A stretch of 37,790 nt of DNA from Clostridiales bacterium (lineage in GTDB: Bacteria > Bacillota > Clostridia > Lachnospirales > JAQSXR01). Where the stretch lies: contig JAQSXR010000024.1 in the NCBI GenBank assembly GCA_029256575.1, forward strand, positions 1 through 37,790, written 5' to 3'. Below the pieces are notes generated by a model. That model was not told the DNA's origin and did not search any database. It saw only the letters and a program-made list of their open reading frames with translations. Below, in pieces: positions 37,505 to 37,790 of the stretch. Each line of letters starts with the position of its first letter. Positions within the stretch are counted from its first letter, which is position 1. The position numbers and the translations under genes are program-made.

Positions 37505-37790
37505 AGAAAGGAGGTGATCCAGCCGCACCTTCCGATACGGCTACCTTGTTACGACTTCACCCCAGTCATTGGCTCCACCTTCGGCAGCTCCGTCCCGTAG
37601 TAATCACTATATTCTAAGTTCAAACTTCGCCGAAATTCGCTAAACACTCGAATTTCGTCTCGTTTTCACTAAGAATCCACTGATTACTACAGGTTCGGTC
37701 ACTGACTTCGGGCATATCCAACTCCCGTGGTGTGACGGGCGGTGTGTACAAGGCCCGGGAACGTATTCACCGCGACATTCTGATTCGCGA
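37505..37790 (-). rRNA. 16S ribosomal RNA, 3' part (continues beyond window)
   Basis: The 3' end of small-subunit rRNA. The universal TTGTACACACCGCCCGTC, the decoding-site strand GAAGTCGTAACAAGG and the anti-Shine-Dalgarno end GGATCACCTCCTTTCT are all intact, so the gene looks functional. Helix 44 carries an insertion at its tip (37597-37691). The downstream gene is a tRNA, not 23S rRNA. Confidence 0.97.
37597..37691 (-). other. Insertion at the tip of 16S helix 44
   Basis: About 95 nt replace the short apical loop of helix 44, near E. coli position 1450. Closing stem: TGATTACTAC with GTAGTAATCA (10 bp perfect, 37597-37606 with 37681-37690). An inner perfect 9-bp stem CGAAATTCG / CGAATTTCG has a 9-nt loop (37631-37657), with an ATTCT/AGAAT pairing between them. 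It is either a retained extension or an intervening sequence cut out after transcription. Confidence 0.85.

Follow-up and report, generated by a model that had tools for sequence, protein, structure and literature searches.

The window, a stretch of 37,790 nucleotides from a Clostridiales bacterium, ends within a 16S rRNA gene whose helix 44 carries a long hairpin at its tip, and the question raised by this locus is what becomes of such an insert and how it came to be there. In an initial reading made from the sequence alone (hereafter the sequence-only reading), it had been proposed to be either a bacterial expansion segment or an intervening sequence (IVS) cut by RNase III. The comparative sequence data assembled here favour the second proposal and speak against a lineage-stable expansion segment. 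We consider it likely that the window insert is an rRNA IVS, that is, a short, structured and gene-less element which has taken the place of the helix-44 tip loop in a functional 16S gene.

Position of the insert and state of the 16S rRNA gene

The Rfam family SSU_rRNA_bacteria matches positions 37507-37790 of the window on the minus strand (model positions 1342-1533) and leaves 95 bases unaligned at the tip of helix 44. Only the last 284 bases of the 16S gene are present, as the contig end at 37790 interrupts it. Comparison with uninserted relatives delimits an insert of 96 nt at 37596-37691 (minus strand), which takes the place of the 4-nt terminal loop of helix 44 and thus lengthens the gene by a net 92 nt: the tip reads AACC-GTAA-GG in relatives and AACC-(96 nt)-GG in the window, and the span from CCCGTCA to AAGTCGTAACAAGG measures 175 nt in the window and 83 or 85 nt in 17 loci of relatives. 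The Rfam alignment and this comparison confirm that the insert is real; of the boundaries first proposed (37597-37691) the end holds and the start moves by one base, and the orientation of the gene on the minus strand is added here. As is typical of an IVS, a hairpin tip is replaced or extended in an otherwise normal rRNA gene. The 89 nt that follow the insert (37507-37595, minus strand, as inferred from the insert boundary) comprise the 3' strand of helix 44, helix 45 and the anti-Shine-Dalgarno sequence CCTCC, and would form a separate RNA if the insert were excised.

The sequence on both sides had been read as ordinary 16S rRNA, and rightly so. Of the 188 bases flanking the insert, 182 agree with the nearest relative found (G331), and all 114 testable columns that are invariant in 42 other 16S sequences are kept, the three invariant columns reported as lost being gaps at the interrupted end of the window 16S. 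The anti-Shine-Dalgarno sequence and the decoding bases are intact. A C-G pair beside the tip has become G-C, with both sides changed (GACCC..AGGGAGC to GACCG..ACGGAGC), so that helix 44 is maintained by compensation. The intact flanks and the compensatory pair speak against a pseudogene as well as against chimerism of the contig.

It is therefore very unlikely that this 16S copy is decaying, silent or an artefact of assembly and its insert irrelevant. Such an origin would fit the interruption of the gene by the contig end, the presence of tRNA genes and not of 23S rRNA after the 16S gene, and a second 16S fragment on contig C43 without the first ~95 nt, which indicates that rRNA is poorly assembled in this draft. 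However, neither the complete set of invariant columns nor the intact functional bases and the compensatory change in helix 44 agree with decay, a chance junction would not yield a 23-bp helix centred exactly on the loop, and the same arrangement is found in finished genomes of other species.

Several further observations concern the surroundings of the gene. An array of tRNA genes (Tyr, Leu, Phe, Gly, Gly, Gln), preceded by a promoter-like TTGTCA/TATAAT, lies after the 16S 3' end (window 36628-37507) with no 23S or 5S rRNA there, and a terminator-like inverted repeat (GCGGC..GCCG followed by a T-run, plus strand, 37362-37390) is located between the two. A 23S rRNA was not found in the draft assembly of this genome, and the arrangement means that the 16S gene is unlinked or that an assembly junction lies here. 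In the second 16S fragment (L026, G000:C43, positions 1-711, minus strand), an rRNA promoter and leader join the 16S sequence at about position 95; the first ~95 nt are absent from this fragment and the rest of the assembly yielded no 16S 5' end, so that the fragment is either a deleted gene copy or a misassembly. Its leader contains AAGTGTATAT (minus strand, L026 652-661), and ATATACACTT occurs ~170 nt past the end of the window 16S (minus strand, window 37332-37341); the two may possibly form a 16S processing stem that joins both contigs.

Predicted fold of the insert

A 111-nt segment that includes the insert has a predicted folding free energy of -45.9 kcal/mol, compared with -21.5 ± 2.8 kcal/mol for shuffled sequences (z = -8.8; 0 of 200 shuffles as good), which bears out the rod first proposed as structured beyond chance. 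All parts of the rod lie on the minus strand. It begins with a closing stem, described at first as 10 bp long and in fact of 13 bp when the CC/GG pairs beside the tip are counted, whose 5' arm (CCTGTAGTAATCA, two helix-44 bases included) spans 37681-37693 and whose 3' arm (TGATTACTACGGG) spans 37594-37606, as supported by the fold and the shuffle test. The stem continues through three 1x1 mismatches with 2, 5 and 3 bp between them (5' arm TGGATTCTTAGT, 37668-37679; 3' arm ACTTAGAATATA, 37608-37619; shuffle test), giving a near-continuous helix of 23 bp, a length reached in 1 of 2000 dinucleotide shuffles. Looser pairs lead from there to an inner stem of 9 bp with a 9-nt loop (CGAAATTCG AGTGTTTAG CGAATTTCG, 37631-37657; fold), exactly as the sequence-only reading had it. 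In this model the ends of the insert pair into the long, RNase III-suited stem expected of an IVS, 13 bp of it continuous and 23 bp including mismatches; the three 1x1 mismatches count against an IVS. The conservation that had been ascribed to the stems has to be withdrawn, since one sequence cannot show conservation and no homologue of the insert was found from which covariation could be read.

Search for homologues and intron signatures

Searches of the genome itself returned only chance matches to the insert, and plasmids and phages returned no match. In the order to which the organism belongs no homologue was found, nor was a relative with the same insert, the search having returned no other genome of its family. 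At the gathering cut-offs, no Rfam intron family matched the window. It is extremely improbable that the insert descends by degeneration from a self-splicing intron or another mobile element. Introns do occur in CPR 16S rRNA, at position 1400 and at other sites (PMC11270868), and the inserts at the same tip in Syntrophomonas and an Armatimonadetes MAG resemble repetitive elements; yet an intron core would not fit into the 96 nt of the window insert, neither a group I nor a group II catalytic core is recognizable in it, and it is neither repeated in its own genome nor found in plasmids or phages.

Helix-44 tip inserts in other bacteria

Among 392 sampled genomes of the order (Lachnospirales-like as judged from the 16S), tested for inserts of ~62-122 nt, 49 had at least one helix 44 of normal length and two had an insert, namely the window genome and G341, the latter belonging to both groups. 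Inserts of about 17-77 nt were not found in the sampled genomes of the order. The G341 insert (109 nt net) is unrelated in sequence to that of the window and adjoins ordinary 5S, tRNA-Ala and 23S sequence; the filled copy and one empty copy of this genome have identical flanks (GACCTAACC...GGAAGGAGC), GTAA being swapped for the insert. A class-wide survey, which lacks a count of readable 16S genes as denominator, gave no further case.

A pattern scan of ~85,000 species genomes yielded 49 stretches, from which 22 genomes were accepted, so that together with G341 at least 23 genomes other than that of the window carry an insert at this tip. The accepted carriers come from many phyla and comprise Bacillaceae, Paenibacillus, Sporomusa, Thermoanaerobacterium, Syntrophomonas, a Desulfobacteraceae MAG, a Proteobacteria MAG, Planctomycetota, an Armatimonadetes MAG and several CPR. 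Stretches with N-run duplications or operon-end repeats were dropped (L027, L032, L033, L038, L040, L046, L050, L051, L059, L065, L069), as were AT-rich, divergent SSU genes that are probably organellar (L029, L045, L055, L056, L071, L074).

Most accepted inserts are predicted to fold as a rod that extends helix 44, and in 16 of the 28 inserts measured, that of the window among them, the longest near-continuous helix has 22-29 bp. The CPR inserts have mostly short helices (9-15 bp), which counts against an IVS. All four Bacillaceae species keep a 24-bp helix in which both members of six pairs have changed; judged from these four related sequences, a small sample, the double-stranded state seems to be constrained in this family. 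Between lineages the inserts are mostly unrelated in sequence, and they are absent from close relatives.

Two families of arms are exceptions to this diversity. The outer arm CCCGGCACTCAA or close variants of it are common to a Desulfobacteraceae MAG (L034), Thermoanaerobacterium (L041), a Proteobacteria MAG (L058) and Bacillus niameyensis (L031); three pairs of these arms are identical at 12 of 16 positions, a likeness that no more than 3 of 50,000 shuffles reached for any of the three pairs. A second arm, CCCCGCACCAATTT, is common to four Planctomycetota. The window insert stands outside both families (2-4 matches in 16). Likeness of arms across phyla suggests horizontal spread or a sequence-specific constraint, with contamination being possible for the members that are MAGs. 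Tentatively, the helix-44 tip hairpins might constitute a class of 16S inserts that recurs across bacterial phyla and spreads horizontally, with some species, such as Sporomusa ovata, having every helix 44 interrupted or extended. If so, these species would possess either a natural two-piece 16S rRNA or a bacterial counterpart of the eukaryotic segment ES12S.

Copy variation and the possibility of a retained segment

The insert resides in only some of the rRNA copies in eight of the nine multi-copy genomes. Copies with and without insert, which may be undercounted in draft assemblies, number 1 and 15 in Paenibacillus silviterrae, 3 and 4 in Bacillus niameyensis, 1 and 5 in Rossellomorea marisflavi, 1 and 2 in Bacillus sp. 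SG-1, 1 and 15 in Neobacillus sp. OS1-33, 1 and 2 in Thermoanaerobacterium, 1 and 2 in Sporomusa silvacetica, and 1 and 4 in G341. The exception is Sporomusa ovata, in which all nine matched copies carry the insert and none lacks it, a point against an IVS and one that is also compatible with a retained segment. For the window genome copy number cannot be judged, as a single 16S 3' end is assembled in the draft. The proposal that empty sister copies, together with a lack of RNA reads over the insert, would mark the insert-bearing copy as decayed or artefactual does not hold in that form, as the insert is real in eight comparable genomes despite their empty copies. The distribution is that known for IVS, namely sporadic, with no insert in close relatives and often none in sister copies, the last property being drawn from the other genomes.

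The main alternative is a bacterial expansion segment, with the rod kept as part of mature 16S rRNA, projecting from the 30S foot and possibly serving a function. In eukaryotes, ES12S extends the tip of helix 44, is retained and occurs lineage-wide; it occupies the corresponding site, which together with the strong predicted fold, the paired changes in the Bacillaceae helix (which fit a retained rod equally) and the invariable presence in Sporomusa ovata speaks for such a segment. The bacterial inserts, in contrast, are sporadic and copy-variable, and their likeness to ES12S consists in the extension of the helix-44 tip. Against retention stand the mostly unrelated sequences, the absence from close relatives and the empty copies in all but one of the multi-copy genomes. 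In addition, RNase III requires about two helical turns; a helix of this length is in principle a substrate of the enzyme, and the RNase III gene is encoded in the window genome. On balance we regard a retained segment as rather unlikely.

The insert as an intervening sequence

An IVS is favoured because the same site has been struck repeatedly by mostly unrelated hairpins, because not every rRNA copy of a genome has an insert, and because the window insert represents a clean swap of the 4-nt loop with no homologue found in the order. In the proposed course of events, the insert would be transcribed within pre-16S RNA and fold to a rod with a 23-bp helix of about two turns, both strands of which would be cleaved by RNase III, with trimming to follow. 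The 16S rRNA would be left in two pieces of ~1.45 kb and ~90 nt, the smaller with the anti-Shine-Dalgarno sequence, and what remains of helix 44 would hold them together inside the 30S subunit. The tip is remote from the decoding site, and insertions there may thus be near neutral and open to gain and loss. We infer that cutting, removal and tolerance take place in this organism, and its ribosomes would presumably function with a two-piece 16S rRNA.

Documented IVS are best known from 23S rRNA, which is a point against an IVS in 16S rRNA. Those of Salmonella 23S rRNA measure 83 and 99 nt, the larger being present in only some copies, and are excised by RNase III (PMC2672173). The 23S IVS (Salmonella helices 25 and 45, Coxiella and others) are, like the window insert, short hairpin stem-loops of ~80-110 nt, and they are likewise sporadic and restricted to some rRNA copies, as seen in the other genomes with helix-44 inserts; the window insert differs in its location at the tip of 16S helix 44 and in that its excision is predicted by analogy. 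Among non-CPR 16S genes, 1.1% are reported to have insertions of 100 bp or more, and the short non-intron insertions in CPR 16S and 23S genes resemble the window insert in lacking ORFs and in being located mostly at the tops or bases of hairpins (PMC11270868). CPR genomes also have helix-44 tip inserts, which are unrelated in sequence to that of the window and have shorter helices, whereas the 16S rRNA of the window genome is of the Clostridia type. In the engineered Ribo-T and stapled ribosomes, foreign RNA in the helix-44 loop is tolerated by a working ribosome (PMC6389949), although there it is an artificial tether to 23S rRNA and remains uncut at helix 44. A description of an IVS at the helix-44 tip was not found in a literature search with most subscription journals outside its coverage.

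The tip used by engineers for tethering the subunits is thus a natural insertion site in many bacteria, and 16S rRNA is probably left in two pieces, with the anti-Shine-Dalgarno sequence on a fragment of ~90 nt. Insert-bearing copies can skew 16S surveys and measures of RNA integrity. Sporomusa ovata, Bacillus niameyensis and Rossellomorea marisflavi are cultured carriers in which it is directly testable whether the insert is cut or kept. The Sporomusa ovata inserts (L035-L037, L039, L043, L048, L066, L067, L075) fall into two length classes and contain TCGAAAGTCGAAGG-like repeats, and direct repeats similar to these are found in the inserts of Syntrophomonas zehnderi (L070) and of the Armatimonadetes MAG (L068).
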